From Macrotis lagotis (taxonomy: Eukaryota; Chordata; Mammalia; Peramelemorphia; Peramelidae): 64,000 bases of DNA. Positions 24,310 through 52,482 of the stretch are shown in pieces. The position numbers were made by a program, and so were the translations under genes. The notes beneath the pieces were generated by a model. That model saw only the letters and a list, made by a program, of their open reading frames with translations. It did not search any database and was not told where the DNA came from. Numbering within the stretch: the stretch's first letter is position 1; the number at the start of each line of letters is the position of its first letter. The stretch covers positions 621,717,156 through 621,781,155 of the forward strand of contig NC_133666.1 in NCBI RefSeq assembly GCF_037893015.1, given 5' to 3'.

Positions 24310-25500
24310 ACTCTAAAAAAAAGAATAAAACTTGGGGCAGAGCTTTGGGGGACGTCCACTTGACATGAGACTGAAAATAAGAGAAGCAAAAAAATAATAT
24401 TAAAAGAAATTATCCTCATTATTCAAGTAAAACATATATGGATTTTGAAGGGGCAATCTAAAAATTATAGATCTTCCAGGAGGATACTATAGGACCAAAA
24501 AGCTTAAAAACCTAATGAAGAAAATAGAAGAGGACTCTAGAATATGTGAACATAGAAAATGAAATTCCAATTCAAAGAATCCACAAATTTCTTCCAGAAA
24601 AATACCCAAGCCTAAAACTCCAAGACATATAGTGCTTAAATTTAACAATACAATTCAGAAACAAGTTCTGCAAGCCATTAAGAGAAAATCGTTCAAAGGA
24701 AAGCATTCTGCACTTAACTGGAAAAAGGAGAGGGAATGGAAAAAAATCATTGGAACTCAGGATGCAGTCCAGAGTGATCTACCCTGCAAATCTGAGTTTA
24801 AAAATATAGGACAAAAGTTGGACATTCAATAATAAAGATGAGTTTGAAACATTCTTTAGAAAGAAAACCAGAATAGAAGAGATTACTTGCTTCTGGAATA
24901 TTCCAAACAAGAGAACTGAAGTAATAGTAATGCTATGACAACAGGAAAGTCTTTCTAAATATATACAAGGAGAAAGGGATGAAGGCAGAAATCTGGTAAA
25001 GGTAACAATGAAGAGTCAGAAGGGAGTACTATGAACAGATTCTGGCCATAACTCTTCCTAAAGGTGAATGCTTCTTTTGTTGGGATTACTTTAGAACAAG
25101 ACAGAGAGTGGCAGGGGGATATAGAGGAGAGACTGGTGTGCTAAGGGTCAAATCAAGGGCTAGCAATGATGGGAAAGTAATTTCTGTGTGAAGATCCTAC
25201 AGGACAGGATTTATGGAGGATAGGGGAAAAGACTGAAAAAGAGGAGGAAAGGCGGTCTTACTTCGGAGATAAAGGGGAAGGAATTTCACTGATGAATGCT
25301 TTTGTGAGGAAAGGGAGATGAGGGTCTTATGCTAAATGAGGTCTCAAAGTTTTGATGATGCTTTTGTTTTTTCCAAGTTAGAGGATGGTTAGAAAGAAGG
25401 GGAGAAATAAAGATATGATAGCTTAAAAAAAGGAAAAGAAATAAATGAAAAGAGGTTAACAGGACATCTTTGTAAGTTATATGTTGAATTTATTATATGT
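24310..25500 (+). pseudogene. Decayed L1/HAL1-type ORF1 element with 3' region
   Basis: Plus-strand frames around 24420-24830 show the ORF1 order NLKII-LPG, then RIHKFLPEKYPKPKTPRH, then VLKFNN and VLQAIKRKSFKGKH, all with stops. A purine-rich tail without RT follows to about 25480. Its family differs from the copies at 30-48 kb. Confidence 0.5.
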
Positions 25501-27935: not shown

Positions 27936-28740
27936 ATTGACTCTAAAGTTCTAGACTGGCAGAACCCACAAAAAGACTGAGTGGAACAATTTTCCATCAC
28001 AAGACAACTTGGAAGATCTGGGGGAAGGGTCTGCTTCTTTGGGGTGAGAGAGAGTGCAGAGCAGCCCAGGTGCACTGGAGTCAACAGCTTCCAACAATGC
28101 AAAAATAAGACAGTAGGGCAACTGGGTCAATGGTAACAGTCTCCACGTCTCTCAGCCCATGAACAGTAATGGGGTCAGAAGGAGATTTCAGGGTGTCTTT
28201 GCTATCAGGACTCTGTTACTTTGCCCATACTCAGATCTAGGTCTCAGTCACAGAAAGAGGAACAGAAGCACAACAGAACTTACTGCCACAGTGGAATAGA
28301 GAACCTTCCTCACAGTTTCAGGGCAGGAAGGTCACCCACCAACCCAAACATAGTCTAGGAGAGTAGTAAAAATCTCCCTTTAGATTATAAGATCTTGGAA
28401 GAATTGAAAACTTGCAGGTCCCTAGAAGTATCTCTGAGAACAGATGCAAAAACTGTCAAAAGCTTAGGACAGTGCATCCTCCACCCTGGAAGCAGAGCCT
28501 TAGTTAAACGGAGAGATAAAATCAAGTCATAGGCTAAGGAAATGAGCAAACAAAGGAAGTAAAAAACTGACCCTAGACAATTACTTTGTCATAAGATCGA
28601 AATACATACTATGAAGAAGATAACAAAGTCAAAGATATTTCCAAAGCCTCCAAGAAAAAATATGAATTATTCTCACAGAAGAGCACAAACAGAATTTTGA
28701 AAATCAAATAAGAGAAATAGAGGGAAATTGCTAGGCAGTT

Positions 28741-30298
28741 TACTTTGAGAAAGGACCTCAGTGTCTGGTGTCTTCCTAAGACAATTTAAGTGGAAGCAAT
28801 TCAGTTTCCTGACATGGTACTGGTAAACTGTCCAGGTTTCATAGGCATATAGCAATGAGGTCAACACAATGACTCTGTAGACCTTCAATTTGGTGGTCAG
28901 TCTAATAACTTTTCTCTTCCATACTTTCTTTTGGAGTCTCCCAAATCTTGAGCTAGTCTGGCAATACAGGTGTCAACCTCATTGTCAATATGTACCTCCT
29001 TGGAAAGGACACTGCCAAGGTAAGAGAACTTGTCCACAGTACTCAAAACTTCTCCATTTGCAGTAATCGATAGCTCCACATATGGATGGAGTGGTGCTGG
29101 CTGATGGAGCACCTGTGTTTTCTTGGTATTAATAGACCAAAATTAGCACAAGAAGCAGAGAATCGATCCATACTTTGTTGCATCTCAGCTTCAGAGGACT
29201 GCGTTGAGTGTATGATCATGCAACAACACTTTCTCCACTTTGGTCTTGGCTTGTAGCCTTTTTAAGTTGAAGAATTTGCCATTGGCACGGTAGCTGACTT
29301 TGAGATCATGTTCATCCTCAGTGAAGGCCTTTGATAACATGGCTGAAAACATCATGATAAAAAGTATGGGATCAGGGTCATATCCTTGTTTTACTACATT
29401 GGTACTGGGAAATCTCAAGAGCATCATCCATTATCCAGAACCTGGGTATGCATGCTGTCATGGAATAGTATAATACTGATGAACTTCTCCAGGCAACCAA
29501 ATCTTGACATAATTTTCTGTAAACCCTCATGACTGTTGGTATCAAAGGCCTTGGTGAGATCTACAAATGTTGTAAATAGAGCTCTATTCTGTTCTTGGCA
29601 TTTTTCCTGGAGTTGTTGGGCAGCACACAATGTATCGACTGTTCCTCTACCCCTTCTGAAGCCACACTGGCTCTCAGGGAAGTGAGCAACTTCCAGTTTA
29701 TTGAGAAGAACTCTGGAAAGAATCTTACCAACCTAAAAGAGAAATATCCCCTGTGATTGTTACAGGAAAATCTATTCCCTTTACCTTTCTAGAGATGGAC
29801 GATGGAGGCATCCTCAAATTCTTGGGGGAATAACCGCTTCATGCCATATAACCTGGAAAATTTCAGTCTGTTTTTGGATGAGCAATGGACTCCTCTCCTT
29901 ATAGATCTCAGCTTGAATAGAATCAACAATAGGTGTTTTGCCATTTGAAAGGAGACTAATGGAATCCACAACCTCTTCTTCAGATGGAACTTCACCTAGG
30001 GTCTGATTGACTTCAACTTGAGGGAAATGGTCAGTGGCTTCTGCATTGATAGATGATGGGTTGTTAAGAACACTATGGAAGTGTTCAGTCCATCTCTCTA
30101 GGATCATGGCCCTATTGTTAATCATTATGGATGCATCAGCACTGAGTAGTTGAGATGAACCATAGGTCTTTGGCCCATAAATAGCCTTCAGGGCATCATA
30201 AAAGCACTTTGGTTTGTTATTGTCTGCATAAAACTGAATTTCATCTGCCTTCTTACTGAGTCAAGAATCCTGTAACTCTAAGCTTCTCTTCTACTTTA
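28741..30298 (-). mobile_element. RTE-clade LINE, reverse-transcriptase fragment
   Basis: On the minus strand, reading from 30290 down, successive frames show the RTE linker (KADEIQFYADNN, CFYDALKAIYGPK), LLSADASIMI and EVPSEEEVVDSISLLSNGKTP. The RT follows, with the FVDLTKAFDT palm motif (about 29560), the VxKQGY palm motif (about 29390) and the C-terminal YETWTVYQYHVRKLNCFH segment (28888-28760). Frameshifts separate the pieces. It lacks the extreme C-terminus, the 3' UTR and the 5' endonuclease. A short continuation may lie at 33311-33345 beyond the HAL1-like insertion. RTE elements encode the machinery used by RTE-tailed SINEs such as those at 0.1, 22.9 and 61.0 kb. Confidence 0.85.
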
Positions 30299-30702
30299 CT
30301 TTTTTTCACTTTTAACATTTTATTTGTTTTCCAATTATATACAATAGTAATGTGTACCCACCATGTACCCATCTACAATTTCCCCCCTCCTCCCTTCCCT
30401 CCCCCCAGAAGGCTTTCTGACAGTCTCTACATTGTTTCCATGCCATACATTGATGTAAATTGAATGTTATAAGAGGAAACATAAGAATAAACATGACCCC
30501 CTTCCCCTCCCCAAGAAGATGGGAAATCTCAAGAATAGAGAGACAGAGAGAAAAAAATGTACTTTAGTCTGTGTTCAGATTTCAATGGCTCTATCTCTGG
30601 GACTTTATCATAAGTCCACCAGAGAAGTTGCTTCAATATTTTTCCCTCAGTTGCTATTACTAGCTGTACCTCCACTCTATTTCTCCCCACTCTCATTTAT
30701 TC

Positions 30703-30704
<2 letters not shown>

Positions 30705-30768
<64 letters not shown>
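30705..30768. repeat. (CT)n microsatellite
   Basis: About 31 CT units; (GA)n on the strand of the HAL1-like element, in its purine-rich spacer. Confidence 0.97.
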
Positions 30769-30769
<1 letters not shown>

Positions 30770-31369
30770 TTCATCTGGCCCTGTCCAAAAGTGTGTTGAA
30801 TCTGAGTACCTTCTCCCTCGATCTTCCCTCTCTTCTATCACCTATTACCCCCTTCCCTCCCCTCATTCCCCCTCATCCCGTCCCTTTCCTCCCATCCTTC
30901 TCCAGGGCAAGATAGATTTTCTCACCCTATTAAGTGTATATGTCATTTCCTCCCTGAGCCATTTCCTATGAGAATAAAGGCTCACTTATTCCCCCTTGCC
31001 TTCCTCTCTCCCCTCCATTGAAAAAGCTTTTTCTTGACTCTTATGTGAAATCTCTCAGCTTCTTCTTCATCTCCTTTTCCTTCCTCCCAGTACTTTCCCC
31101 CATTGCCCATTGACTCCATCCCTTTACCACATCATACCATTATATTCTGCTCCTTCCTATGTTTTGTCTATATATGCTCCTCTAATAGCTCTTATCAATG
31201 AGAAAGTTCATATGAGTTATCAATATCTTCTTCCCATGCAAGAATACAAACAGTTCAATATCATTAAGTTCCTCATAGTTAGTTCTCTTCCACCCCCTCT
31301 ATGGTTCACCAGAATCCTGTACTTGGATATACAGCTCTGGTTGTTTCAATAGGAAAGTTTGAAAGTCCC

Positions 31370-31500
31370 CTGGATAAAGCACTGTCCTTGGAGTCAGGAG
31401 TACATGAGTTCAAATCCCGCCTCAGACACTTAATAATTACCTAGCTGTATGGGCTTGGGTAAGCCACTTAACCCCATTGCCTTGCAAAAACAAAAAAAAA
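31370..31500 (+). mobile_element. WSINE1-type SINE in the end of HAL1-like ORF1
   Basis: 5'-shortened copy beginning at TGGATAAAGCACTG, inserted antisense to ORF1. It supplies the spurious last codons of that frame. Confidence 0.9.
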
Positions 31501-31502
31501 AA

Positions 31503-32490
31503 TGTCCCTCTTTTTCCCTGAAAGAGGATGTTCAGTTTTGCTGGGTAGTTGATTCTTGGTTGTAAACCAAGATCTTTTGCCTTCCAGAATATCATATTCC
31601 AATCTCTACAAGTCCTTAATGTAGATGCTGTCAGATCCTGTGTAATCTTGATTATGGAGCCTCTGTTGTTGAATTGTCTGTTTCTGGCAACTTTTAGAAT
31701 TTTCTCTTCGATTTGGGAGTTTTGGAATTTGGCTATAATATTCCTGGAAGTTTTTCTTTTGGGATCCCTTTCAGGGGGTGACCAGTGAATTCTCTTGATT
31801 TCTATTTTACCCTCAGCTTCTAGGATCTCAGGGCAATTCTGCTGTATTATTTCTTGAAAAATGAAGTCTAGGCTCTTTTCTTGGTTGTGGCTTTCAGATA
31901 GTCCAATAATTTTTAAATTATTTCTTCTGGATTTGTTTTCAAGGTCGGTTGTTTTTCCAATGAGATATTTCACATTTTCTTCTAATTTTTGGCTTTTTTG
32001 GAAGAGTTTTATTTCTTCCTGATTTCTTGCAAAGTCATCAGCTTCCTTTAGTTCCATTTTGCATTTGAAGGAGTTATTTTCTTCAGAGAGCTTTTTTATT
32101 TCCTTTTCCAGCTGGACAATTCTGCTTTTTAAGGCATTCTTATCCTCATTTGCCTTTTGTTTTGCTTTGTCCATTAGGCCTAAACTGGTTTTTAACATTA
32201 TTTTCTTCAGTATGTTTTTGTATATCTTTCACCAAACTTTCGATTTGGTTTTCATGATTTTTTTTGTATCGCTCTTATTTCTCCTCCCAATTTTTCTTCC
32301 ACCTCCCTTAATTGCTTTTCAAAGTCTTTTTTTTGAACTCATCCATAGTCTCAGTCCATTTTCTATTTCTCTTGGAGGTTTTGGATACAGAAGCTTCAAT
32401 TTTGTCATCATCTGAGTATGTGTTTTGAGCTTCCATGGGACTAAAGTAATTCTCTATGGTCAGATTCTTCTTTTTCTGTTGTTTACTCAT
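31503..32490 (-). pseudogene. ORF1 of the minus-strand HAL1-like element, one internal break
   Basis: The frame opens with MSKQQKKKNLTIENYF at 32490. It is broken between about 32308 and 32200 and then open for more than 200 codons. The second part has a coiled coil (NALKSRIVQLEKEIKKL), the RRM start RRNNLKIIGLSES, the SPPERDPKRKTSRNIIAKF linker and the C-terminal ITQDLTASTLRTCRDW and FQGKR motifs. This is L1 ORF1 domain order. The last codons of the open frame come from the inserted SINE (31370-31500) and are not original. Confidence 0.82.
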
Positions 32491-33150
32491 TTCCTCAGCC
32501 CATGACTAATTTACAGCACTTCCAAGGTTTTGGGGTTTTTTTGGGGGGGGACGCCCCACTGGGACCTTTATTCCTCCAATGTCTTATACTTTCTTTCTTG
32601 CCTGTGCTTTGATATGTAGATGACCACAGCACTGCCCTCTGCCCTGGGACTATAAGGAGGGATCCAGCTATCTTAGTATGGAAGCCCAAACTACAACCTG
32701 GGTCTGAGCATAGGCAAACAGTAGAGTTCTACCCCAGGGAAAGCAGAGAAATCTCTGCAGACTTCCTTTACCATCTCTGAGAGTGCAGGCGCTTTCTCTG
32801 GATTCTCGCTGCAGGTTCTGTGGCCATGCTCCTCACTCCACACACACCCAGGTGCAGCAGAGTTCTTTCCCCGCCCCTTCAAGCTGTTGCTGGTGATTTC
32901 TGGGCTGTGCTGGGCTGTGCTAGGCTGGGACGTGGCTTTTTCCCAACCCTTGTCCTGGTGAATCACACCTTTTCCATGGAACTTCTAAGTTATCTTGGAC
33001 TGGGAAAATGTATCACTCAGTCTTTCAGAGGGTTCTGCCCCACTAAATTTTGTCTAGAGCCATCCTTTGTTTGCTTTTTGGGAGTTTGGGTGGTAGGCAT
33101 TCTCTGGGAATGCTGTCTTCACACCATCTTGGCTCCGCCCTCTACTTTTT

Positions 33151-33297
33151 GTTTTTTAGTTTTTGCAAGGCAATGGAGTTAAGTGGCTTGCCCAAGGCCA
33201 CATGGCTAGGTAATTATTAAATGTCTGAGGTCAGATTTGAACCCAGGTACTCCCGACTCCAAGGCTGGTGCTCTATCCACTGTGCCACCTAGCTTCC
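33151..33297 (-). mobile_element. WSINE1-type SINE at the HAL1-like 5' junction
   Basis: Inverted copy with a perfect 13 bp TSD CCCTCTACTTTTT at 33138-33150 and 33298-33310. Confidence 0.95.
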
Positions 33298-33339
33298 CCC
33301 TCTACTTTTTAAGGAATTAAATGCTGTCTTTTAAAAATG

Positions 33340-35705
33340 ATGGCTCTATAAGAAATCAAGAAACAATAAAACAAAATCAAAAGAATGAAAAATAGAAGAA
33401 AATGGAAAATATCTCAGTGGAAAAACAACTGACCAGGAAAACAGGGGAGATAATTTCAAAATTATTGGACTATCTGAAAGCCGTGGTCAAAAAAAGAGCC
33501 TAGACATCATCTTTTAAGAAATTATAAAGAAAACTGCCCTGCTATTCTAGAACCAGAAGATAAGCTAGAAATTGAACCACCAATCCTAAAAGTGATCCTA
33601 AAATGAAATATTATATTATAACCAGGAATATTATAGTCAAATTTCAGAGCTATCAAGTCAAGGAAAAAACATTGCAAGCAATCAGAAAGAAACAATTCAA
33701 TCATCACGGAGCCTCAAAGGGATATAACACAACATTTAGCAGCTTCTATATTAAGGGATCATTTATGATATTCCCAGGGGCAAAATAGCTTGAATTACAA
33801 CCAAGAATCAACTACCTGGTAAAACTGAATATATTCTTTCAAGGGAAAAGATGGACATTCATTGAAACAAGGGATTTCCAAACTTACTTGGAAAGACCAG
33901 AGTTGAAGAGAAAAATCTGATCTTTAAATATGAGACTCAAGTGAAGCATAAAAAGGTAAACAGGAAAGACAAATCATAAGGGACATAATGATGTTGAACT
34001 ATTTATATTCCTGCATAGAAAGATAATACTGATAACTCATATGAACTTTCTCATTTTTTAGGACATTTAGAAGGAGCATATTATATCACAAGCACAGGAG
34101 GGAATTAAATATGAAGGAATAATATATTTAAAAAGATGGAGTTAATGGATGAGAGAGGAAATACCAAGAGAAAAAGAAAGAGGGAGGTAGAAGTATTAAG
34201 TTATTTCACATAAAAAAAGGCAGCGGCATGGAAAAGAGGGGAGCTGAGAGAGAGAGAGTGAATGAGTCTTATTCTCATTGGAATTGACTCAGAGAGGGAA
34301 TAACATACACACTCAATTGGGTATAGAAATCTATCTTGCCCTAGAGAAAAGTGGGAGGTAAAGAGGATGGGAGAAGAGGGAGAGGTGATACAAGGGAGGG
34401 AAGATTGTGGGAGGGGGTAGTTAGATGTCAAACACTTTTGAGAAGGGACATGGAGAGAGAGAATAGAATAAATGGGGGGGGTGAGGGAAATAGGATGGAG
34501 GGAAATACAGTTGACAATAGCAACTGTGGGAAAAAAATATTGAAATGTTTCTCTGATAAAGACCTTATTTCTCAAATATAGAGAACTGAATCAAATTTAT
34601 AAATAAATAATAACCATTCCGCCAATTGATAAATGATCAAAAGATATGAACAGATTTCAGATGAGGTTATCAATGCTATCTATGGTCGTATTTTTAAAAG
34701 ACCTAATTTGGGCCAGCTAGGTGGCACAGTGATTAGAGCACCAGCCCAGGAGTCAGGAGGACCTGAGTTCAAATTTGACCTCAGACATTTCATAATTGCC
34801 TAGTTGTGTGACCTTGGGCAAATCACTTAAACCCATTGCCTTAAATAAATAAAATTTTAAAAAGAAAGTTAAAAAAAGGCCCAATTCACTATTGATAGGA
34901 GAAATGAAAATGAGAACAATTCTGAGATAATACCTTATATCTATTGGATTGACTAATAGGACAGAAAGAGAAAATGACAACTGTTGGAAGGTATGTAGGG
35001 AAATTGAGTCATTAAATTACTGTTAGGGGTGTTGTGAAATAATTCAACAATGCCATAGAGCAATTTGGAACTATGTCCAAAGGGTTATAAAAGCATATCT
35101 GCCCTTTGACCTCACATTGCCAAGACTAAGTCTATATTCTGGAAAATATAAAAAAAAACAGGAAGGAAAAGGACCTATACACAAAAGGATATTTATAGTA
35201 GCTCTTTTCTGATGTCAAGGAACTGGAAATTGAGGGGATGTCCATCAAGTGGGGAGTGTCTGAACAAATTGTGGTATGAGATTATGTTGAAATGCTATTT
35301 TTCTATAAGAAAAGGTGAAGAGGATGCTTCAGCTAACAAACTTGCAAGAGCAGATGGAATGGGAAATGAACCATATACAAAATTACAGCAATAATGTTGG
35401 ATGACCAACTGTGATTCTCAGCAAAACTGTGACCCACAACAACTCTAAAGGACTGATAGTAAAGAATACTATCCATTCCAAAAACAGGACTGCTGATATC
35501 TGAATAGAGATTGAAGCATCCTTTTTTTACTTTATTTTTCTTGAGGTTTCTCTTTTTTTGGGTCATAACATGACTACTATGATTGTGTTTACCATATTAT
35601 GGAACATTTTTCTCAGTGAGGATGAGTGGGATGAGAAGAAGAAAGAAAATTTGGAATTCAAAGGTTTAAAAATGAATATTAAAACTTGCTTTTACCTGTA
35701 ACTGG
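33340..35705 (+). mobile_element. 3' part of a HAL1-like element: ORF1 C-half, spacer, ORF2 C-terminal remnant, tail
   Basis: 33350-33920 is a stop-ridden ORF1 (GDNFKIIGLSES, NIIVKFQSYQVKEKTLQA). 33930-34540 is the same purine-rich spacer as at 47.6-48.1 kb, including CTCATATGAACTTTCTCATT and AATAGCAACTGTGGG. It then joins directly to the C-terminal third of L1 ORF2 (34550-35450; SDKDLISQ at the joint, WKLRGCPSSGECLNKLWYE near 35220) and ends in a 3' UTR. Endonuclease and RT are absent, so this copy keeps more of ORF2 than the other HAL1-like copies. A SINE interrupts it at 34709-34872. Confidence 0.75.
34709..34872 (+). mobile_element. WSINE1-type SINE inside a HAL1-like element
   Basis: Plus-strand copy. 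TSD AAAAGACCTAATT (34696-34708) and AAAAGGCCCAATT (34873-34885). Confidence 0.9.
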
Positions 35706-35735
35706 GGAAAAATAAAATAAAAAAAGACACAAAAA

Positions 35736-35815
35736 AGAACCAATAAGTATCTGAGATTGGATTTGAACTCAGTTCTTCCTGACTCCAGGACCAGCAGTAT
35801 GCCATCTAATTGCCT
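35736..35815 (-). mobile_element. SINE fragment (WSINE1-like)
   Basis: Partial inverted copy: AATAAGTATCTGAG, then GGATTTGAACTCAG and CTTCCTGACTCCAGGACC. Confidence 0.75.
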
Positions 35816-35819
35816 GGGA

Positions 35820-38400
35820 AACCTTTCCTAGGCAATGCATTTAAATTCTCTAGGTATCAATATTGATGCTGCTTGAATTTTTGAATGCCATTTAAACTGC
35901 CTTTTAATTAAATATCATTCTGGGGAAGCCATTTAAATTCTTTGGGTCCTAGAGAGATGACCACTAAGGTCTTTATAACTTAAAAGTCTCTGATCCTATA
36001 AATTTTTTTCCAAATAATTTCTTTTCTAAGTCTTCTGCAGACGCCACAAGACAAGTGACAGTGTAAGGAGTGATTACAGAAGGGATGAGGATACCTGTGA
36101 GGTTTCATCTGTAATGTATTTACAAGGACTCACTGGAGAGATTCTTTACCTGGGACTTCCATTATCAGACACCTTAGATTTAAAAATCCACTACAAAAAT
36201 ATTAGCATTTTTGCTTTCCTCTTTATTCTCTTTAGAAGTCAGACCAGGTCTTTAAAGACAACTTTTGCTTTTTTTGAATGCTTCTGTACTTATGTTTATT
36301 GTACTATTTTTAACATTCTTGTCCTTCAGTCAGTTCTGGCCTAGAACACTATTAGTATGCACACATCCATCCATACATACATAAGCAAACAAACATAAAT
36401 AAATGGGGGAAAAGAAAATAGAAAATTCTCAATAATTGTCATATGAATATATATACATATAAATCATATATATATATATACATTAATGGTAGCATATATG
36501 ACATGTGTGATCAGTTATGTTCCTTTTATATTATCATGTTAATTTGCCACTTGTTTGATAGTTTTAGACCTGCTATAGTCAAGTTTTTAACCTCTTTTTT
36601 TTTATCAATGGAACTCATTGATCACTTGAGGAAGCCAATGGACTCCTCAGAATCAAGGTTTTAAATGCATAAAATAAAATTCATAGTATTACAAAACATT
36701 GAAATACAGTTGTGAAAATATTTTTAAAAAACAAATTCATATACCTTGGTAAAGAACTGCCCAGTCTAGGCTGACCACTAGTATCTTTGGATCTATAGCT
36801 TTGCATTCCTAAATCTTGAATGTATAGATGTCTAGATAGGCATTGTCAAAGACTATAGATTGTGTCTTTGTCCTGGGGGAGGTCTTTACAGCTGAAGTAC
36901 TGGGCAAAAAAGATTAACCTCTAGGTTCAACTCTTCCCCTTGTCTGAATTTTAGTCTGCTTCAGTTTCATATGGTCAGTGAGATAATACAGAGTCCTCCT
37001 TGAGATATTATTATTTTATGTTTTTTTTAGGTTTTCAGTGACCTCTGACCAAAGGCTTCAATCCTGTTTTACAAAGCAATTTCCTTGGAATTCAACATCC
37101 AAAATATTTACACTAAACTGACCATGATTGGTCATCTCCCACAACCACAGTTTCTCTGACATTGTTTTTTTGGTACCAAACCATTTATGACCCCTGATCC
37201 CTGGAATTTTTGCCTGTTCAAGTGGAATTATTCCATCAAAGGTTCCCTTTCTCATCAGGTTTTCTAAAAAACTTTTGAGTCTGGGTGACCAGGGTGCTCT
37301 ATTATTGCCTTGCTTCTATTGCCTATACATAAAGAGTTATTCACTAAAGTTGTATTTTCCTGTATTTCATTTCTCCATTTAGGCTCTGACTATTCTCAAT
37401 AATTCCATAACTCTCCTGTACTAATTATGCTCATTTTTGTTCTTTCGTCATAACCAGTTGTGTCCTCTCCTCCATAGAGGGTTATAAGACCTTTGCCCAC
37501 TTTTACCATGGAAACCTGGCACTTTCCTGAAGAATTTGAAAAAGCCAGTAAGCTAGAATGAGAGCGAGTAAAAGGAGTAAATATAAAATAAGGCTGTAAT
37601 GGAAGCTGTAGTCACATTATAAAGGTGCACAGGCTGAGGCATTTCATCTTCATGCTGGAGCTAATAGGTAATCAATGATACTAGTTCTATCAGCAATCAT
37701 AGCTACCAGTTCTTCCAGTACCTGAGAATGTAGGTCAACTGGACCAGGTGATTTGAATTTATTTGAATTTATCAAAGACAACTTCTCCTTACTTAGCCTA
37801 TGTGTCAAATATCAATTAGTCATTTTTGTTCTGTCATTTTCCATGCCCCCAAACCACCAACACTGGTAAATTGGATCCTTTATAATGGATGCAATTATTG
37901 CATTATGCAATTAGCAATGTATCAATATTTTCAATTGTGCAGAAAGTTATTTCAAAGGAACTCTGTGACTTGTAAAGCAAGCACATGTGAAACTGCTGAC
38001 TATTTCTCTAGTAGATCCTTGCAAAGTAGAACACCCAAGAAGAAAAGTACCATGTGGAAGATCACTACAAGTGGGTCCCAGCAGATGTAAAGGTCGCCCA
38101 AATATATCCCAGATGAGTTCCATGAGTAAAAACCCTTCTGGGCTTACTTGCCCAAGCCATATCAGCTGTGGCAGATTGAGTCTCTGGGTTTGAAAATCTT
38201 CCTAACACTGGTTTATAAGATTCCACCATATTATCAAATGAGATAATATTTGTAAAGCACAACATAAAATAAATGTTTATTCCCTTCCTCTACATTTGCC
38301 TGACAGCACATTTAGCAGTCAGTAGACTTTATTTTTCTTCAGCTTACTCATTTTAAAAAAATTATTAATTAAATTTATTTTTAATTAATTTATTCATTTT
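35820..38400. other. No gene recognised
   Basis: AT-rich, with an AT tract at 36450-36482 and weak SINE-like traces (35930-36000). The open frames are short and unassigned. Confidence 0.5.
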
Positions 38401-38407
38401 GAACATT

Positions 38408-38507
38408 AAAATATGGAACACTTTATGAATTTGTGTTATCCTCACACAGAGGCCATGCTAATCTTCTCTTTATAGTTCTAATTTTAATATATGTGCTCCT
38501 AAAGTAC
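38408..38507 (-). pseudogene. U6 snRNA retropseudogene
   Basis: The reverse complement contains AGCACATATATTAAAATTAG, AGAGAAGATTAGCATGGCC and the 3' end AAAGTGTTCCATATTTT. These are near-identical to U6 snRNA over about 95 nt. The 5' loop has changes (TTTAGG in place of CGCTTCGGC), and an A/T-rich tail follows toward 38340. No upstream snRNA promoter was checked in detail; substitutions across conserved U6 positions indicate a pseudogene. Confidence 0.9.
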
Positions 38508-38797
38508 TAGTTCTTTCTTTAGCAAAGGCATTTACTCAAATGACATAGCAATGGAAATACTTACAAAGCATCTCCCCTAAAACTAGGGGGTACACTCTCC
38601 CACAATTACAGAATCCATGAGGAAAAGAGTGAATATGAATTTAATAGTACAATTTTAAGAAACACACATAGGGAACATATATGGCTAATGTAATTCCCAA
38701 TTCTGGGACCATAGAGCTTCAGTGTCTGAAACTCTAGAGGATCCTCATGAAGTTCATTATAGGTTGTGGAGTCAGGGATGGAATGAGTTGTTTCTTT

Positions 38798-38951
38798 TTT
38801 TTTAAGTTTTTTTTGCAAGGCAAATGGGGTTAAGTGGCTTGCCCAAGGCCACACAGCTAGGTAATTATTAAATGTCTGAGACCGGATTTGAACCCAGGTA
38901 CTCCTGACTCCAAGGCTGGTGCTTTATCCACTACACTACCTAGCCGCCCCC
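38798..38951 (-). mobile_element. WSINE1-type SINE
   Basis: Inverted full copy. Perfect 13 bp TSD GAGTTGTTTCTTT at 38785-38797 and 38952-38964. Confidence 0.95.
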
Positions 38952-39749
38952 GAGTTGTTTCTTTGCTCAGTTGAGTTGACTCTTAGCAAAGCTGTGGCAT
39001 CTCCATTGGAAAGGCAGCTCAATTGGACTTACTCCTCATGGAGTCCAGTGTCATGTATGGACTGGTAAATCTACTACTGGGTTGGACCAGTTAGGTTTCT
39101 TAGTCAATAAATTACTACTGGATCAGGACAGGCAAGTCATTCAGATGTTGGAAAGCTGCTGCCAGGTTGGGTTGGGTGGAATTCTGATATGCTGGACTCT
39201 TCTAGGGTCACAGGGATACACTACACAGATTGAAATTGCTATCTGATAGGATGTTGTTTTGTTTTGTTTTGTTCTTTATTTTGTTTTAATTTTAATTTAT
39301 TTTCTATTACATTTTGAGTTTTGAGTTATCTCTCACTTTGCTTCCCAGCCCCACATTAGAGAAGGCCAACATTTGATATACATACATATGTAGAACCATG
39401 TATCAGTTTTTTCTCTCAAAGTAGATAGCGTTTCCCTTCATAAGACCTTCATAATTGATTTTTATGATTATATTACTCACAATAGCTTAATCATTCACCA
39501 TTAACTCTTCAAACACTATCATGACTGTTTATCACATTCCTGATTCTGCTCATTTCACTTTTCATTCTTTCCTGCAAGTCTTTCCATGTTTTTCTAAAAC
39601 CAACCTGCTCATCACTTCTTACAGAATACTACTATTCCTTTACAATCATAAACCACAACTTATTTGTCATTCCCTTTCCTTCCCTTCTATTTCCAGTTCT
39701 TTGTCACCACAAAGAATTCTACTATAAATATTTTAATAATAATATTAAC

Positions 39750-39932
39750 GATAATAATGTTTTGTTTTCGAAGACCATGACATCAGGGAAATGATGCATA
39801 ATGAGGAGGTGAACTGGATTTAAGTGAGGGGGGGCTGTGCTAGGTCACTAGACTCACTTTCTTCTCCAGAGTCATTTGGGTCAAGTGACCAGATATGAAT
39901 CAAGATGACTGAAGATGACCCTGGTTATAGTG
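39750..39932 (-). mobile_element. Marsupial core-SINE inside old L1
   Basis: Inverted copy from TTTTCGAAGACCATGACATC to GACTGAAGATGACCCTGG. It interrupts the L1 3' end. Confidence 0.8.
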
Positions 39933-41795
39933 ATTTTATTTGTACATACTCTTTTTTAATTTAATGCAATCAAAAGTATCCACTTTATATGCCACAATGC
40001 TCTTAATCTCATGTTTATTCATAAATTCTTCTCTTAACCTTATATCTAATAGGTTATATGTTCCATGATCTTCTAATTTACTTATTATATTTCCCTTTAT
40101 GTCTAGGTCATGTATACATTTTAACCTTATCTTGCTAAAACTACAAGATATTGGATCATACATGACAGACCGCTTTCCAGTTTTCTCAGCAATTTTGACC
40201 AACTAGTGAGTTCTTATCTCTAAAACTTAGATCTTTGAATTTATCAAACATGAGGTTATTATAATAATTTGCAAGTGTATATTGAATACCATCAACTCCA
40301 TTCCACTAATCTTCCCTTTTGTTTTTTAGACAGTACCAGAGAGTTTTGATAATTTCTGCTTTATAATACAGTCTAAGATCTAATACTGCTAGGCCCCCTT
40401 CCTTTACATTAAAAAAATTAATTTATTTGATATTCTTGACCTTTTCTTCTTCAAATGAATTTTTTTCTAGTTAAATAAAATGATTTTTTGTAGCTTAATT
40501 GGGATGACATTGAATAAGTAGATTATTTAGGTAGGATAGTCATTTCTATCTTATTGACTGGTCTGGTCCAATAGTAAATTAATATTTCTCCAAATATTAA
40601 ATTTTGACTTTATTTGCATCAAAAGTATTTTATAATTATGTTCATATAGTTTCTGTGTTTGTTTTGTCAGGTATACTCCCAGGTATTTTATATTGTCTAT
40701 AGTTATTTTAAATGAATTATTTCTTGCTATCTCTACTTGTAGGACTTTGTGGGTCACCTATAGAGATGCTAATGTTTTATATGGGTTTATTTTATATTCT
40801 GTTACTTTGCTAAAATTATTATTTCAGCTAATTTTTTAGTTGACTCACTAGGATTTTCTAAGTATAGCATCATATTATCTGCAAAAAATTGATATTTATT
40901 TCCTCATTACCCATTTTAATTCCTTTAATTTCTTTTTCTTTTCTTATTGCTGTTGCTAGCTTTTCTAGTACAACAGTGAATAATATTGGTGACAAGGGGC
41001 ATCCTTGTTTCATTCCTATTCTTAATGGGAAAATTACATTACAGATAATGCTTGCTCATTGTTTTTAGGTAAATGCTTCTCATCATTTTAAAAAAATCAC
41101 CTACCTACGTTTTCAAATGTTTTTAATAGAAATGAGTGCTGTATTTTGACACAAGTTTTTCTCCATCTATTGATATGATTGTATGATTTTGTTGCTTTTG
41201 TTACTGATATAATCAATTATCTTAATAGTTTTCCTTATATTAAACCATCCCTGCATTCCTGGTATTTCTCTTGGTCATATAATCTTTATTATATACTGTT
41301 ATTAATATCCCAGCTAGTATTTTATTCAGGATTTTTGCCTCAATATTCAATATTGAAATTGGTCTAAAATTTTCTTTCTCTTTTTTATGGTCTTCTTAGT
41401 TTAGATATCAGCACCATATTTGTTTCATAAAAGGAGTTAGGCAAGACTTCCTCTTTGTCTATTATTTTGCAGAACTTATTTAATATAAGAATTAGTTTAT
41501 CTTTAAATGTTTGGTAGAATTCTCTTAAAAATCCACGTTGTGTCAAGGCTTTTTTCTTAGGATGCTCATTATGATATTAGTGATTTGGTTTTCTTCTCAC
41601 TTTTTAAATAAAAACAAATTAACCAATGGTTTATCTACTTTATTAATTTTTTCTTAAAACTCTCCCTTAGTTTTACTTATTAATTCAATTACATTTAATT
41701 TTTAGAATTTTAATTTGTTCTTTTCCTAGCCTTTTAAATTGCATACCCAATTCATTTATATCTACTCTTTTCTCTTTTATTGGTGCTAAGTTTTT

Positions 41796-41951
41796 TTTTA
41801 GGTTTTTTTTTTTTGCAAGGCAAATGGGGGTTAAGTGGCTTGCCCAAGGCCACACAGCTAGGTAATTTTTAAGTGTCTGAGACCGGATTTGAACCCAGGT
41901 ACTCCTAACTCCAAGGCCGGTGCTTTATCCACTACGCCATCTAGCCGCCCC
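41796..41951 (-). mobile_element. WSINE1-type SINE inside old L1
   Basis: Inverted full copy. Perfect 15 bp TSD TGGTGCTAAGTTTTT at 41781-41795 and 41952-41966. Confidence 0.95.
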
Positions 41952-42471
41952 TGGTGCTAAGTTTTTAAAGATAAACATTTTTCCTCTGATTACTAGTTTT
42001 ACTGTATTCCATAAGATTTGGCATGTTGTCTCCTTATTCTTTTTTAATGAAATTATTTATTGTGTCTTTGATTTGTTCTTTGACCTATTCATTCTTTAAG
42101 TTAAGTTATTTGTATTCTAATTAATTTTGAATCTGTGTTTCCTTGGTTCTTTATCAAATGCAATTTTTATTGCATTATAATCTGAAAAGGATGCAATTAA
42201 TATTTCTGCTTTTCTGCATTTTGACTATAAAGTTTAATGCACTAATACAAGGCCAATTTTTGTAAAGGTGTCTTGAACTGCTTAGGAATTGGTATATTCC
42301 TTTATATCACATTCAGTTCTCTCTAAATATCCATCTTATCTAAGATTCTATTCATATTATTTACTTTTGGGGGCTAAATGTTATCTTGTTCTGAGAGGGG
42401 AAAGTTGAACTGCACATAGTTTTGCTATTTCCACCTGTGATTGATTTAGCTTTTTCTTTAAAAATTTGGAT

Positions 42472-42629
42472 CTTGGGGTAGCTAGGTGATACAGTGGAGA
42501 AAGCACTGGCCCTAGAGTCAGGAGGACCTGTGTTTAAATTTGGCCTCAGACATTTGATATGTACTAATTGTGTGACCTTGGGCAAGTCACTTAACTCTAT
42601 TGCCTCACAATCCCCCCTCCCAAATAAAT
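42472..42629 (+). mobile_element. WSINE1-type SINE inside old L1
   Basis: Plus-strand diverged copy. TSD AAATTTGGAT (42462-42471) and AAATTTGAAT (42630-42639). Confidence 0.88.
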
Positions 42630-43110
42630 AAATTTGAATGTTATAGCATTTAGTTTAGCATGAATGTTTAGTTTTTATATTATTTTATTTTCCATGGTAA
42701 CTTTTTAAACAAAATATCCTTTCTCAGCTTATCTCTTTTTATTAATCTATTATACCTCTAACTTTGTCTAAGATCATGATTGATACCCCTACTTCTTTGT
42801 ACATCAGCTAAAGAATAGTAAATTCCACTCCAGTCTTTTATTTTTACAATATGATTATCTCACATTTTTAAATGTTTTTCTTATAAACAACATATTGTTG
42901 GGTTCTGTTTATGCTTCTCCTCCTCCTTCTTCTCTTTCTTCTTCTAATTCTTCTTTTCTCCTCCTACTCTGTGTGTGTGTATCCTTTCTCAAAAGTCTTA
43001 CTTCTTGAACATTGCTTCCCTAATGTGCATTCCCTTTAAAAGTCACCTCCTTTGTCTATCCCCTTGCCCTCCCATTTCTCTGTAATTTAATAAAACTTTT
43101 GTGCTCAATT

Positions 43111-43176
43111 ATATATAGATATAGATATAGATATAGATATAGATATAGATATAGATATAGATATATAGATATATTA
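43111..43176. repeat. (AGATAT)n microsatellite
   Basis: Hexanucleotide tract of about 10 units inside the old L1. Confidence 0.96.
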
Positions 43177-45900
43177 CATTTTACCTTTCTTTATCCAAGT
43201 TTATTTTTTAGGCTCATCTCAACTCAAACCCAAGCCTTCTATCTATGTATATTTTTACTAACTACCCTAATAATGATAACATCCATAAGAGTTAGAAATC
43301 TCATTTTCTCATTTTAGACAGTAAACAGTTTAAACTTATTAAATTCCTTATGATTAAAATTTCATGTTTACATTCTTATCTTTCTTCTGATTCTTTTATC
43401 TGAAAGTCAAAGTTTCTATTCAGTTCTAGTTTTTTTCCTCAAGAATGTCTGAAAATCTTTTAATTTATTAAATATCCAATTTCCCTAATGAGATTACACT
43501 TAACTTTGCAGGGTAACCTTATTCTTGGTTGTAAAACCAACTCCTTTCAAATTATTCTTCAAAATATTCTAAACCATATCTTTTTAGGTAGAAATTGCTA
43601 AATCTTATGTTATTCTTACTGTAACTCCACAATATTTGATTTTTTTTCTAGTTGCTTTCTAGTTGGGAGCTTTGAAACTTAGGTATAAATGATCTTGTGA
43701 ATTTTCCTTTTAGGATTTCTTTAGAGGCAGTCATCAGAGGATCTTTTTAAATTTCTGTTTTATCTTCTAGATTTAAAACTTCTGGGTAATCTTCCTTAAT
43801 AATTTCTTGAAATATAATATCTAGATTCATGACTTTCATGTAGCCCAACAATTCTTATATTCTCTCCTCAATCTGTTTTTCTTATCAGTTGTTTTTTATG
43901 ATGATCTATTTTATGTTCTATTTTATTTTTTCCATTCATTTTTGTTTTATTGTTTCTTGAATTTTATTAAGTCATTAGCTTCCCCTTGCCCAATTCTAAT
44001 TTTTAAGAGCTATTTTCTTTTGGGGCAGAACCAAGATGGTGGAATGAAGGTAGGAAATCCTGGCAGCTCTCCCCCAGACCACTCTTTTAAATAATGACTA
44101 CAATCAAATTCTAGAGTAGCAAAACTCACAGAAAGACTGAAAGAAACAATTTTTCAGCCCAAGACAACTTGGAAGATCCATAGGAAAGGTCTGTTATACC
44201 TGGGTTGGAAAGCACCACAGCACAGCCCTGGTTACATTGGAGTGAACTGGTTCCAGTTATCCAGGAACAGTCCAAGGATCACCTAGGTTGCAGGGGCACT
44301 TGGGTCTGGGGGGGGGGGGATTCCAGTCCTCTCATCCCAGGGATTGCCAATGACAACTTGGAAGGTCAGTGGGAAAACTCTGCCACACCAGAGTGAGTAT
44401 GGAACCCAGTCCAGGGCAGGCCTCAGTACAGCCCTAGACCTGGGAACCAGAAGCAGGACTAGAGAGCCACCTGGCAGGAAGCCACTCAACAACTGCTTCC
44501 AGAGAGTAAGGGGGTCAGAGGAGACTGCAGAAGTCTCTCTGCTATCTTTGAGGTAGGACTCTTGCTTTACTCATACTCAGATCCCAGTCTCAGAAAGGAG
44601 AGCTTTACTGCCATAACAAAGCAGGGACCCTCCTCATAGCTCCTGGGCAGAGGGGTGTGCTTGTGGTCATCCACAGACCAGAGCAAGGTCAGGATTGCAG
44701 TAAGAGTCTCTCATAAGATCTTGAAGGAATTGAAGTCCCTGAAGGGTGTCCATAAAAACAGCTGCAAAATCCTCAAAAGCTTGGGAGTGTGCCCTACACT
44801 CTGAAAGCACAGCCCCACCTTAGCAAAGAGTTAAAATCAGGTCATAGCAAACAAAGGAAGAAAAACAATCTGACCAAAGACAATTACTTTGATCCCATGT
44901 AGGATCAAAATACACACTCAGAAGATAACAAAGTGAAAGTTTCTGTATCTAAAGCCTAGGAGGTGTTGGTTTATGGACGAGCTCAAAAAAAAAAGATTCT
45001 GAAAATCAAGTAAGGGATGTAGAAGAAAAATTTGGAAGAGAAATAGAGTGATGCAGGAAAATCACGAAAACTAAGTCAGAAACTTGGTGATGGAGATACC
45101 AAAAAAATACTGAAGAAAATATCATCTTAAAAACAAGTTTAGTTGGAGCTAAGATGGTGACAGGAAAAGAGCCTCTCCTAGGAGTTCTCTCCATAACATT
45201 TCAAAAATCTTAAATTTATGGCTCTTAACTAAATTTTTGAGAGACAGAACCCACAGAAGGATCCAGTGAGGCAATTCTCCAAACCAAGGTAACCTGGAAA
45301 ATAGTGGAAAAACTCCACTCCACGGGGTTAGAGTGGCGGCCCCACCAGAGTAAAGAAACTTCAGCCTCCCAGAAAGAGCTCCAAGGTGCCTGGGAGCCTC
45401 GGCTGCTACAGCAGGAGCAATTTCCTGACCTGCACCCTGGGGAGGGGAGCACCAGCCACAACTTGGAGGATCAGCCAAAGGCCTCTGCCTGAGTGAGCAT
45501 GAAGGCTACACCCTCAGGGCACTCAGCACAACAATGGCCACTGCAGCCCAGATCCAGAACCCAGAAGCAGGTGTGGAGCCTGCCAGCAGGAGCCTCCAGG
45601 CAACTGAACCCTGAGTGCTCAGTCCACAAAAGGTAAGGGAGGGAGACTTCCAAGGTCTGTCCTCTGTACCTGGAACAGGACTCTGGGCTCTGACTACATT
45701 CAGATCCTGATCACAGTCTAGGCCCCCCATAGAACATCAGGGCCCCCCCACCTCAGTCCCATGGCAGAAGGGTGCACTTGTGGTCATTCACAGACCAGGA
45801 GAGCAGTCAGAGCTCCACACACTGAGATCCTTGTGTGGGGCTGTCCCAATAATACTCAAAAGCTCAGGAAGCACCCCAAAACCAGGCACAGGCTGGAGAA

Positions 45901-46227
45901 ATGAGTAAACAGAGAAAAAAGAGGAACACCACTGATAAATACTTTGTCTATGATCCCAAGAAGGATCAAAACACTCAATCTGAAGATGAGGAAGCACAAG
46001 CTCCTGCATCTAAAGACTCCAAGAAAAACGGAAATTGGGTTCAGGCTATGACAGAGCTCAAAAAAGATTTTGAAAATCAAGTAAGGGTGATAGAAGAAAA
46101 ATTGGGAAAAGAAATGAGAGAGATGAAGGAAAAACATGAAAAAGAAGTCAGCAGCTTAGTCGAGGAGATCCAAAAAAATGCAGAAGAAAATAACATGTTA
46201 AAAAACCAGCATAGGTCAAATGTATAA
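45901..46227 (+). pseudogene. ORF1 N-terminal part of the HAL1-like element
   Basis: The 108-codon frame begins MSKQRKKRNTTDKYF and carries a Lys/Glu-rich coiled coil. It has the same start as the ORF1 of the minus-strand copy at 32490 (MSKQQKKKN). It is stopped after 108 codons, but the ORF1-like sequence continues with frameshifts to about 46780, where the satellite replaces it. A 5' UTR of about 760 bp (45142-45900) precedes it. Confidence 0.75.
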
Positions 46228-46779
46228 AACAGTTCAAAAAGTTATTGAGGAGAAGAATGCTTTATAAAGCAGAATTGGCCAGTTGGAAAAGGAGATAAGA
46301 AAGCTCTGTGGAAAACAAACCCTTCATATGTAGAATAGAGCTAAAGGAAGCTGATGACTTTACAAGAAGACACAATACTTCAACACCAAAAGAATGAAAA
46401 ATTAGAAGAAAATGTGAAACAGCTAATTGAAAAAAGAAACTGATCTGGAAAACAGATTCAGGAAAGATAATTATTGGAATACCTGAAAGTCATGTTCAGG
46501 AAAAGAGCCTTGACCTCATTTTAAAGATTCCTACAGGAAAATTGCCCTGATATCCTAGAAGCAGAGGGCAAAAAATAGAAATTGAGAGAATCCATCGATC
46601 TGCCCCAGAAAGAGATCCAAAAAACCCAACCCCCCCCCAGGAATATTATAGTCAAGTTCCAGAATTGCTAAGTCAAAGAGAAAATATTACAAGCAGCCAG
46701 ATAGACACAGTTCAAATATCGTGGAGCTCCAGTCAGGATCACACAGGACTTAGCAGCAACTACATTAAGAGCATGTAGG

Positions 46780-46996
46780 GCTTAGAATATAATATATGAT
46801 ATATGATATATGATATACGATATACGATATACGATATATGATATATGATATATGATATATGATATATAATAAATATATAATATATATATAAATATATAAT
46901 ATATAATAAATATATAATATATAATAAATATATAATATATAGCATATAACATATGGTATATAGTATATAGTATATGGTATATAATATATAATATCC
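46780..46996. repeat. ATATGAT/TATA satellite within HAL1-like ORF1
   Basis: About 215 bp of ATATGAT, ATACGAT and TATAATA variants replace part of the ORF1 C-terminal coding segment. The three overlapping minus-strand Tyr/Ile-rich frames through it are simple-repeat artefacts. Confidence 0.9.
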
Positions 46997-48333
46997 AAAC
47001 AAAAAAGCTTGGAATGCAACCAAGAAACCCAGCAAAACCGAGCATCCTCTTCCAGGGGATGAGATGGACTTTCAAAGGGAAATTTCAAAGGAATTTCAAA
47101 TGTTCCTGTTGAAATAACTAGAGCTGAACAGAAAGTTTGACCTTCAAATACAGGACTCAGGCAAAGCATAGAGAGTGGAGGAGAAGGGTAAAATATGAGG
47201 GAGGAGAAAATATTACAAGCAGTCAGAAAGAAACAATTCAAATATCATGAAGCTACAGTCAGGATTAGGATTTAGCAGTCTCTACATTAAGGGTTCATAG
47301 GGCTTGGGATATGATATTCCAGAAGGCAAAAGAACTTGGATTACAACCAAGATCAACCACCCAGCAAAATTGAACTTATCATTTCAGAGGAAAAGATGGA
47401 CATTCAATGAAATAAGGGATTTTCAAAATTTTCCTGGTGAAATGACCAGAGCTGAACAGAAAGTTTGCTCCTCAAGTACAGGACTCAGCTGCAGTATAGA
47501 GAGGGTTGACAGAAAGGGCAAATTATGAGGGATTTAATGATGATGAACTGCTTGTATTCCTGCATGAGAAGATAATACTGATCATACTCATATGAACCTT
47601 CTCATTTATTAGGGCAGTTAGAAGGAGCATATATAGACAAGGCACAGGAGGGATTTGAATTTGAAGGCATAATATAATAAAGATGAAGTCAATGGGTGAA
47701 AAAGGAATGTACTGGGAGAAAAAGGGAAACGAGACTTGGAATAGGCTGTTCACATAAAAGAGGTAAGAAAAACCTTTTGCAGTGAAATGGAAGGGGAGAA
47801 GGTGAGAGGGAATAAGCAAGCCTTCACTCTAACTTGAAGTGACTCAGAGAGGAAATAACATTAACACTCATTTGTGAATAGAAATCTATCTTACTCTAGA
47901 GGAAAAAAGGAGAGAAAAGGGATGGGAGAAAGGGGACAGGGGGCAGGTAGGACAGAAGAGAGGAAAGATCATGGGAAAGGGCAATCAGATATCACATACT
48001 TTTGAGGAGGGACAAGGTAAAAGGAGAGAGAGAATGAATAAATGGGGTTGGGGAAGAATAGGATGGAGGGAAATTCAGCTAGTAATAGCAACTGTGGGGG
48101 AAAAAAACTAAAGCAATTGCTTTCTTGGACTTATGATAAAAAATGCTATCCATCCAAAGACAGAGCTGATGGTATCTAAATACAGACTGAAGCACACTTT
48201 TTTTTCTCTCTCACTTTATTTTTCTTGAGGTTTCTTTTTCTTTATGGGGTGGGGGGGGGATTATGTTTACTTTTACAAGATTATTGTAGTAATGTGAAAA
48301 ATTAAATAAAAACATTTTTAAAGATATTTTCTT

Positions 48334-50128: not shown

Positions 50129-50829
50129 CCTAAAATACACCACTGTTCTCCACGGAGGCTGCAAGTGTCAGTTGGCCCCTCTGCCCTGGAACTGAAACAA
50201 GGAACTCCACTTCTCCTGTGATTGATCACATCCAGTCCTTCTCCATCTGAGAACCACAAGAAGGGCTCCTTTGTGCCTTTTAGTCACACTCATCAATATG
50301 TGATCAATCCTCCTCTTCTGTAGTAACAGTCAAGGCTGTGTCCAGTGCCAGTAAAGGTCCCCACTTATCCAGTCTTCTTCTGATCAGCTCTCTAATCCCC
50401 ACCATTCCTGAGATGAAAGTTTCTAAAAGTGAAGCTGTCTGTTACACCTCCCCTAAGGCTTGCTGTTTTTTTTTTAAATTTATTTTTATTAAAGATATTA
50501 TTTGAGTTTTACAATTTTCCCCCAATCTTGCTCCCCCTCCCCCAGATAGCACTCTGTCAGTCTTTACTTTGTTTCCATGTTGTACCTTGATCCAAATTGG
50601 GTGTGATGAGAGAGAAATCATATCCTTAAAGAGAAGAGAATTCTCAGAGATAACAAGAACAGACAATAAGATATCTGTTTTTTTCTAAATTAAAGGGAAT
50701 AGTCCTTGCACTTTGTTCAAACTCCACAGCTCCTTATCTGGATACAGATGGCACTCTCCTTTGCAGACAGCCCAAAATTGTCCCCAATTGTTGAACTGAT
50801 GAAATGAGCAAGTCCTTCAAGCTTGAACA

Positions 50830-52415
50830 TCACCCCCATGTTGCTGTTAGGGTGTACAGTGTTTTTCTGGTTCTGCTCATCTCGCTCAGCATGAGTTCAT
50901 GCAAATCCCTCCAGGCTTCCCTGAAATCCTGTCCCTCCTGGTTTCTAACAGAACAGTAGTGTTCCATGACATACATATACCAGAGTTTGCTAAGCCATTC
51001 CCCAATTGAAGGACATTTACTGGATTTCCAATTCTTTGCCACCACAAACAGGGCTGCTATAAATATTTTTGTACAAGTGATGTTTTTTACCCTTTTTCCT
51101 TATCTCTTCAGGGTATAGACCCAGTAGTGGTATTGCTGGGTCAAAGGGTATGCACATTTTTGTTGCCCTTTGGGCATAGTTCCAAATAGCTCTCCAGAAG
51201 GGTTGGATGAGTTCACAGCTCCACCAACAATGTAATAATGTCCCAGATTTTCCACAACCCTTCCAACAATTATCATTATCCTTCCTGGTCATACTGGCCA
51301 ATCTGAGAGGTCTGAGGTTGTACCCCAGAGAAGCTTTAATTTGCATTTCTCTAATAATTAATGATTTAGAGCATTTTTTCATATGGCTATGGATTGCTTT
51401 GATCTCCTCATCTGTAAATTGCCTTTGCATATCCTTTGAGCATTTGTCAATTGGGGAATGGCTTTTTGTTTTAAAAATATGACTCAGTTCTCTGTATATT
51501 TTAGAAACGAGTCCTTTGTCAGAATCATTAGTTGTAAAGATGGTTTCCCAATTTACTACATTTCTTTTGATCTTGATTACATTGGTTTTATCTGTGCAAA
51601 AGCTTTTTAATTTAATGTAATTGAAATCATCTAATTGGTTTTTGATGATGTTCTCCAACTTTTCCTTAGTCATAAACTATTCCCCTTTCCATAGATCTGA
51701 CAGGTAGACTAGTCCTTGATCTTCTAATTTGCTTATAGTATTGTTTTTTATGTCTATGTCCTGTAACCATTTGGATCTTATCTTAGTAAAGGGTGTGAGG
51801 TGTTGGTCTAATCTAAGTTTCTTCCATACTAACTTCCAATTATCCCAGCAATTTTGATCAAAGAGGGAGTTTTTATCCTAATGGCTGGACTCTTTGGGGT
51901 TATCAAACAGCAGATTACTATAATCATCTCCTGCTTTTACACCTAGTCTATTCCACTGGTCCACCACTCTATTTCTTAGCCAATACCAAACAGTTTTGAT
52001 GACTGATGCTTTATAATATAATTTTAGATCAGGTAGGGCTAAGCCACTTTCGTTAGCACTTTTTTTCCATTAAGCTCCTGGAAATTCTTGACTTTTTATT
52101 TCTCAATATGAATTTACTTACAATTTTTCTAACTCATTAAAGTAATTTTTTGGAATTTTGACTGGTAGGGCACTAAACAGATAGTTTAGTTTTGGTAGAA
52201 TTGTCATTTTTATTATATTAGCTCTACCTATCCACGAGCAGTTGATATTTGCCCAGTTATTTAAATCTAATTTAATTTGTGTGAGAAGTGTTTTATAATT
52301 GTTTTCAAAAAGATTCTGAGTCTGTCTTGGCACATAGACTCCCAAATATTTTACATTGTCTGAAGTTACTTTGAATGGGATTTCTCTTTCTAGCTCTTCC
52401 TGCTGTTTCTTGCTA

Positions 52416-52482
<67 letters not shown>

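Follow-up and report, generated by a model that had tools for sequence, protein, structure and literature searches.

A stepwise lineage of HAL1 elements in the genome of Macrotis lagotis

The elements of the window and their coding content

The window, which is the whole stretch of 64,000 nucleotides of Macrotis lagotis DNA analysed here, contains three elements derived from the L1 retrotransposon, called A, B and C, together with an L1 that served as the yardstick (the window L1) and an older minus-strand L1 called D (Table 1). The elements are nested, with D acting as the host of C and B as the host of A. The two pieces of B appear to represent one element that was later split both by another insertion and by A, and B is for that reason likely to be older than A. 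Between the pieces of B is found a minus-strand insertion (approximately 28750–30298) with a reverse transcriptase (RT)-like open frame at 29814–30125, which may be of the RTE type, and about 230 bp of ORF1 are apparently missing across the gap. The initial annotation had located the elements, strands and junctions to within a few bases, except that the plus-strand element B begins at around 27946 and not at 27.7 kb.

Element C is flanked by an imperfect target-site duplication of 19–20 bases (TTTTTAAGAGCTATTTTCTT and TTTTTAAAGATATTTTCTT); the target-site ends of A amount to just a short A-rich candidate. C is a composite, in which a second HAL1 5' part (44023–45143) is followed by another 5' end at around 45148, and in which the ORF1 stretch 46678–47202 is repeated at 47204–47532, the two copies being 74–80% alike and the first of them carrying an AT-rich microsatellite (around 46795–46990). 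Such a build may have come from a chimera, a nested insertion or a duplication. Two more ORF1 remnants, both very diverged, are seen at 24441–24866 and 6322–6850.

Table 1. Positions of the elements and of the deletion scars in the window (a slash within a sequence marks the break)
Feature	Position	Strand	Remarks
Element A (HAL1, A/C-type junction, L1-like 3' tail)	30299–33142	minus	5' end GGGCGGAGCCAAGATGG
SINE within element A	31371–31502		
Element B, 5' part (5' UTR and ORF1 start)	27946–28740	plus	
Element B, 3' part (ORF1 second half, spacer, ORF2 C-terminal remnant, 3' UTR)	33320–35725	plus	
ORF2 C-terminal remnant of B	34527–35449	plus	923 bp including a SINE at ~34710–34870
Element C (HAL1, A/C-type junction, short 3' tail, composite 5' half)	44023–48310	plus	
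L1 D with endonuclease and RT remains	39916–44019	minus	5' part at 48613–48317, beyond C
Window L1, yardstick (ORF1, long purine-rich inter-ORF region, ORF2 pieces)	50400–56522	minus	
Both scars of A	30617–30652	minus	same scars in 30 C-junction loci
Both scars of C	48090–48141	plus	first AACTG/TGGGGGAAAA at ~48094/48095; second at ~48127/48128 (GGACTTATGATAAA)
First scar of B	34522–34566	plus	AACTG/TGGGAAAA...TTTCTCTGATAAAG, break at ~34526

When pieces of the window L1 were used as tblastn queries, ORF1 matches were obtained in A, B and C, and all three lacked any match to the endonuclease or the RT. With these queries, endonuclease and RT were detected in the old L1 at 42907–40485 and RT in a fragment at 63437–64000, as well as, trivially, in the query L1 itself. 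With these positive controls, the searches confirm the view, taken at annotation, of three elements that have L1 ORF1 and a purine-rich spacer and are devoid of endonuclease and RT. Among A, B and C, only B was matched by the ORF2 C-terminal piece (34886–35194). In Pfam searches Transposase_22 and Tnp_22_dsRBD scored above the cut-off in A (31437–32198), and the window L1 gave L1 ORF1 domains at 55452–56522 along with a reverse transcriptase; no family was returned for the short ORF1-start frame of C (45901–46227) or for one of the ORF2 pieces of the window L1.

A profile of the A, B and C spacers matches the window L1 between its two ORFs, at 55533–55351 (E 1.1e-9) and 55289–54841 (E 2.3e-8). 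The purine-rich spacer is thus the ordinary inter-ORF sequence of this type of L1, which from its likeness is presumably marsupial. The window L1 and the HAL1 copies have in common the ORF1 domains, the long purine-rich inter-ORF region and a homologous ORF2 C-terminus, but unlike the HAL1 copies the window L1 has kept an ORF2 with endonuclease and RT, albeit one that is broken in this copy. Pairwise dN/dS values for ORF1 are 0.383 (A–B), 0.303 (A–C) and 0.335 (B–C), measured on three copies over 121–155 codons with 2–7 stop-bearing codons dropped per pair, and indicate that ORF1 coding was kept while the HAL1 family was active. When viral and bacterial contig collections were searched for the ORF1 of HAL1, 4 and 40 pattern stretches respectively turned up, with none confirmed, and a 22-base junction was found in no viral contig.

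The two deletion scars

In a MAFFT alignment A and C match base for base through the junction without a jump, which bears out the common spacer-to-3' UTR junction noted at annotation. The A-rich run and GCAA/TTTCT step that had been regarded as the end of the spacer turn out instead to be some 30 bases from the C-terminus of ORF2, left over from a B-type form. Two scars are found in A, the first (AACTG/AGGGAAAA, at around 30647/30648) leading from the ORF2 start to a scrap of the ORF2 C-terminus and the second (CTCTGG/TGGACTT, at around 30618) from this scrap to the 3' UTR. In B the first scar joins the first codons of ORF2 to the ORF2 C-terminus (W-E-K-F...S-D-K-D), and A and C retain just the first 30 or so bases of the remnant that follows. 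The annotated join of B to the ORF2 C-terminus holds, but its spacer point is not merely near that of the others, as the first scar is one and the same in A, B and C. Likewise, the extra 0.9 kb ascribed to B is correct as a length of 923 bp but includes a later SINE, the ORF2 remnant itself being about 0.76 kb. A short L1 3' piece at 23471–23900 also starts near the same ORF2 C-terminal point (ISDK) and has its own internal deletion ahead of the 3' UTR.

The stretch TGGGAAAA...TTTCTCTGAT is read as ORF2 C-terminus because its aligned place continues straight from certain ORF2 homology; the B-type locus L038 (WEKFIETSFSDKDLISQIH) aligns with WETIFTTNDSDKGLVSKIY of the window-L1 ORF2, and L056 does likewise, with weak tblastn E values of 0.37 and 0.18. 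Since the A/C copies keep this C-terminal stretch up to GAT, they are read as descendants of the B-type form. The left side of the first break is placed with the help of an L1 with endonuclease matches that adjoins the HAL1 of locus L008, and whose related spacer ends TTAACTGTG/AATGTGAATGGG at the ORF2 start (IILTV-NVNG). As this ORF2 start matches the HAL1 AACTGTG, the break probably falls within the first codons of ORF2, although this left placing is the weaker half of the assignment. The L1 beside L008 is itself apparently deleted further on, as an ORF2 C-terminal match comes next, at 3109. Compared with the window L1 alone the first breakpoint is mostly non-significant (left arm P 0.50–0.74, none of three comparisons below 0.05; right arm, two of six below 0.05), and further loci were used to place it. 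No L1 with both a close spacer and an intact endonuclease was found, and thus the exact parent is missing.

For the second deletion, 26 of 30 B-type loci match at the start of the 3' UTR, some of them partially, with the majority sequence AACTCTGAAGGACTTATGATAAAG, which puts CTCTGA at both ends of the deleted segment. The A/C majority reads CTCTGAT/GGACTT (CTCTGATGG), one base off the CTCTGAAGGACTT that is predicted from a clean jump between the CTCTGA repeats.

Copies across the genome and the origin of the junctions

The genome to which the window belongs (3.66 Gb in 607 contigs) contains 457 exact copies (225 + 232) of the 25-base A/C junction (TTTCTCTGATGGACTTATGATAAAG), with none for the reversed control. 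Only a fraction of copies this old would be expected to keep 25 bases unchanged, and the A/C family therefore probably numbers thousands. The exact B 25-mer occurs 129 times (64 + 65; reversed control 0), but as it may also occur in parent L1s this is not a clean count of B-type copies. With a 241-base C-junction query all 40 scored places matched, C included, from 4034 first-look candidates, and the 30 loci that were fetched all share both scars, with the majority ...AGCAATAGCAACTGTGGGAAAAAATATTGAAGCAATTTCTCTGAT/GGACTTATGATAAAG... and a mean distance to it of 0.114 (0.059–0.181). A B-junction query likewise matched at 40 of 40 scored places, B included, from 2453 candidates, and all 30 fetched loci read ...AGCAATAGCAACTGTGGGAAAAAATATTGAAACAAGTTTCTCTGATAAAGACC..., at a mean distance to the majority of 0.125 (0.066–0.178).

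As the loci of these two sets are the best matches to a junction-bearing query, their agreement is biased, and searches with the spacer alone were run as a control, 15 of the 40 scored places being fetched in each. The B spacer (34270–34505) matched at 40 of 40 scored places (5352 candidates), and the B-type is the best-scoring form for 14 of the 15 fetched loci, of which L065, L066, L068 and L069 show further minor changes at the scar; the remaining locus, L072, shows another break. The C spacer (47860–48095) also matched at 40 of 40 (4923 candidates), and the A/C junction is present in 14 of 15 loci, L078 having a local deletion at the junction. An endonuclease directly after the spacer was found in none of the 30 loci of both sets, and in L071 and L075 an endonuclease match appears only past the ORF2 C-terminal piece, about 1.1 kb beyond the spacer. 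Within these sets L061 is B itself and L076 is C itself, whilst L087 and L090 come from the same places as L006 and L002, respectively.

If separate L1 copies had each been deleted locally, the same ends could have been reached through repeats at the breakpoints, and recurrence is not impossible given the short direct repeat CTCTGA that flanks the second deletion. Against this stand the 457 exact A/C junctions, the close prediction of junction type from spacer type (14 of 15 in both control sets) and the grouping of the A/C copies in a tree of the spacer alone (see below), which together leave independent deletion highly improbable. The view expressed at annotation, that these are propagating derivatives and not the result of repeated local decay, is supported by the exact copies and by the different sites occupied by A and C.

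The copies might also have multiplied as passengers of segmental duplications and not by retrotransposition. Two pairs of closely similar HAL1 loci, L071/L075, separated by about 95 kb, and L082/L083, separated by about 103 kb, one pair in each spacer-only set, do look like duplicates and are probably local segmental duplications. The 40 scored C-junction places, however, are spread over eight contigs. C is inserted in an older L1 and flanked by a duplication of its own, and A is inserted in B, so that there is scarcely any likelihood of the copies having spread in this way.

The spacer also gives information on descent. A maximum-likelihood tree built from the spacer alone, with 21 A/C loci, A and 20 B-type copies (19 of 60 loci having been dropped for spacer length before alignment), separates all 22 A/C copies from the 20 B-type copies by one split with a UFBoot value of 96. 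The tree is unrooted, the B-type copies form a comb beside the A/C split and many inner branches are weakly supported. When ORF1 was put to a four-taxon test (A, B, C and L1; 508 columns), A and C were grouped in 957 of 1000 bootstraps, the other arrangements receiving 33 and 10, and a wider ORF1 tree gave 95 for A and C versus the rest. In the spacers of the three window copies A+C is not favoured, as shared-state sites number 92 for A+C, 91 for B+C and 56 for A+B, and the B–C distance (0.33) is smaller than that of A–C (0.36).

Retrocopies of spliced L1 transcripts, each made anew from full-length or B-type RNA, would likewise be expected to bear the same junction in unrelated insertions. 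In the B-type majority the removed segment, which extends from GATAAAG or AAAG (after TTTCTCT) to CTCTGAAG, was judged by eye to be without GT...AG ends, and the A/C copies group together in the tree of the spacer, which makes splicing a very unlikely source, if marginally less so than the two alternatives above. On these grounds local decay, splicing and segmental duplication were all rejected as the main source.

Order of the deletions and the 3' tails

It is very probable that A, B and C belong to one HAL1 lineage, in which a B-type form arose from L1 and an A/C-type form from the B-type, the tails were later changed and copying was presumably carried out in trans by L1. As the lost segment does not return, the direction runs from B-type to A/C-type, and the order of the two deletions as read from the aligned sequences is L1, B-type, A/C-type, with the changes of the 3' tail coming later. 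The stepwise series put forward at annotation is supported more strongly than could be shown at that time, since the A/C copies carry the first scar of B.

In the first step an L1 would have been stripped of most of ORF2, between the first codons (AACTGTG) and a point some 0.75 kb ahead of the 3' UTR (TGGGAAAA..., W-E-K-F), to give the B-type. A B-type copy would then have lost this last 0.75 kb or so, probably by a jump between the two CTCTGA repeats, to yield the A/C-type. Finally, the tails of sub-lineages would have changed, the C-type stopping early after AATGTG and the A-type carrying an L1-like tail. Each form was probably transcribed and made ORF1p, which would have been used in cis, whilst the ORF2p of contemporary L1s would have copied it to new sites in trans, as is suggested by the missing ORF2.

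The A-rich end of C, which comes after AATGTG, recurs at the identical point in 19 of the 30 C-junction loci. Four loci of the first C-junction set (L013, L016, L022 and L025) and one of the later set (L085) continue into the older B-type tail, and in the remaining C-junction loci the 3' tail is ambiguous or broken. The third kind of tail, that of A (30299–30480), is 75–82% like other L1 3' ends in the window over 86–113 columns. At the corresponding place this tail was detected in none of 45 C-junction and C-spacer loci (C being counted twice and two places repeated) and in none of the B-type loci that were read; L015 has a piece of A-type tail about 280 bases downstream. When a query running from the second scar of A through the HAL1 3' UTR to approximately the first 40 bases of the tail was used, at least 199 of 201 bases matched at 40 of 40 scored places, from 2912 candidates with A included and read over the query span only. 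On account of this scar–tail join, the A form, too, appears to be a subfamily. The lineage could conceivably have shrunk stepwise and outlived its parent L1 by swapping its 3' tail for that of a later L1 lineage, thereby staying readable to successive L1 RTs, though this remains a doubtful proposal.

Relation to known HAL1 elements and age

HAL1s have been described as non-autonomous, ORF1-only derivatives of L1 flanked by target duplications (PMC5753468, PMC5322556), and they appear as a known kind of L1 derivative also in PMC3627910. Several independent origins within mammals are given in PMC5753468. Dependence on L1 enzymes is stated in PMC5322556 and is stated as likely in PMC4161310. The elements described here resemble HAL1 in being L1-derived with ORF1 retained, in having no detected endonuclease or RT, an A-rich 3' end and many copies with a common deletion junction, and moreover in the target-site duplication of C and the coding constraint on ORF1. 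The guinea pig HAL1 is reported, in PMC3627910, to have kept its ORF1p coding capacity for about 29–44 million years, which implies use of ORF1p in cis and of ORF2p in trans, and the dN/dS values of the window copies fit this account. The present elements differ from the known ones in that a single lineage records two losses from ORF2, one after the other, followed by changes of the tail.

A search of published papers found none on a marsupial HAL1, and among Repbase-style names for such elements only 'HAL1-2a' was matched. The lineage is a real, multi-copy, stepwise and old one of a known kind, and is itself new as far as the search reached; with the kind already known, the surprise is modest. 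It amounts to a fossil series from an autonomous retrotransposon to a smaller, dependent one, showing what part of ORF2 was the first to go, what scrap was left behind and that every intermediate multiplied by itself.

A count of the identical junctions and a dating of the copies by divergence had been envisaged at annotation; the count is 457, and the distances to the majority are 0.06–0.18. The mammalian neutral rate is approximately 2–3 changes per site per billion years, and the distances to the majority then suggest an age for the copies of roughly 40–60 million years. Leaving out its match to itself, C is matched at 87% at best. No young copies were seen among the best matches to the old copies, and the HAL1 family is likely to be extinct. 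Within this genome the ordered scars can be used as markers of insertion age.
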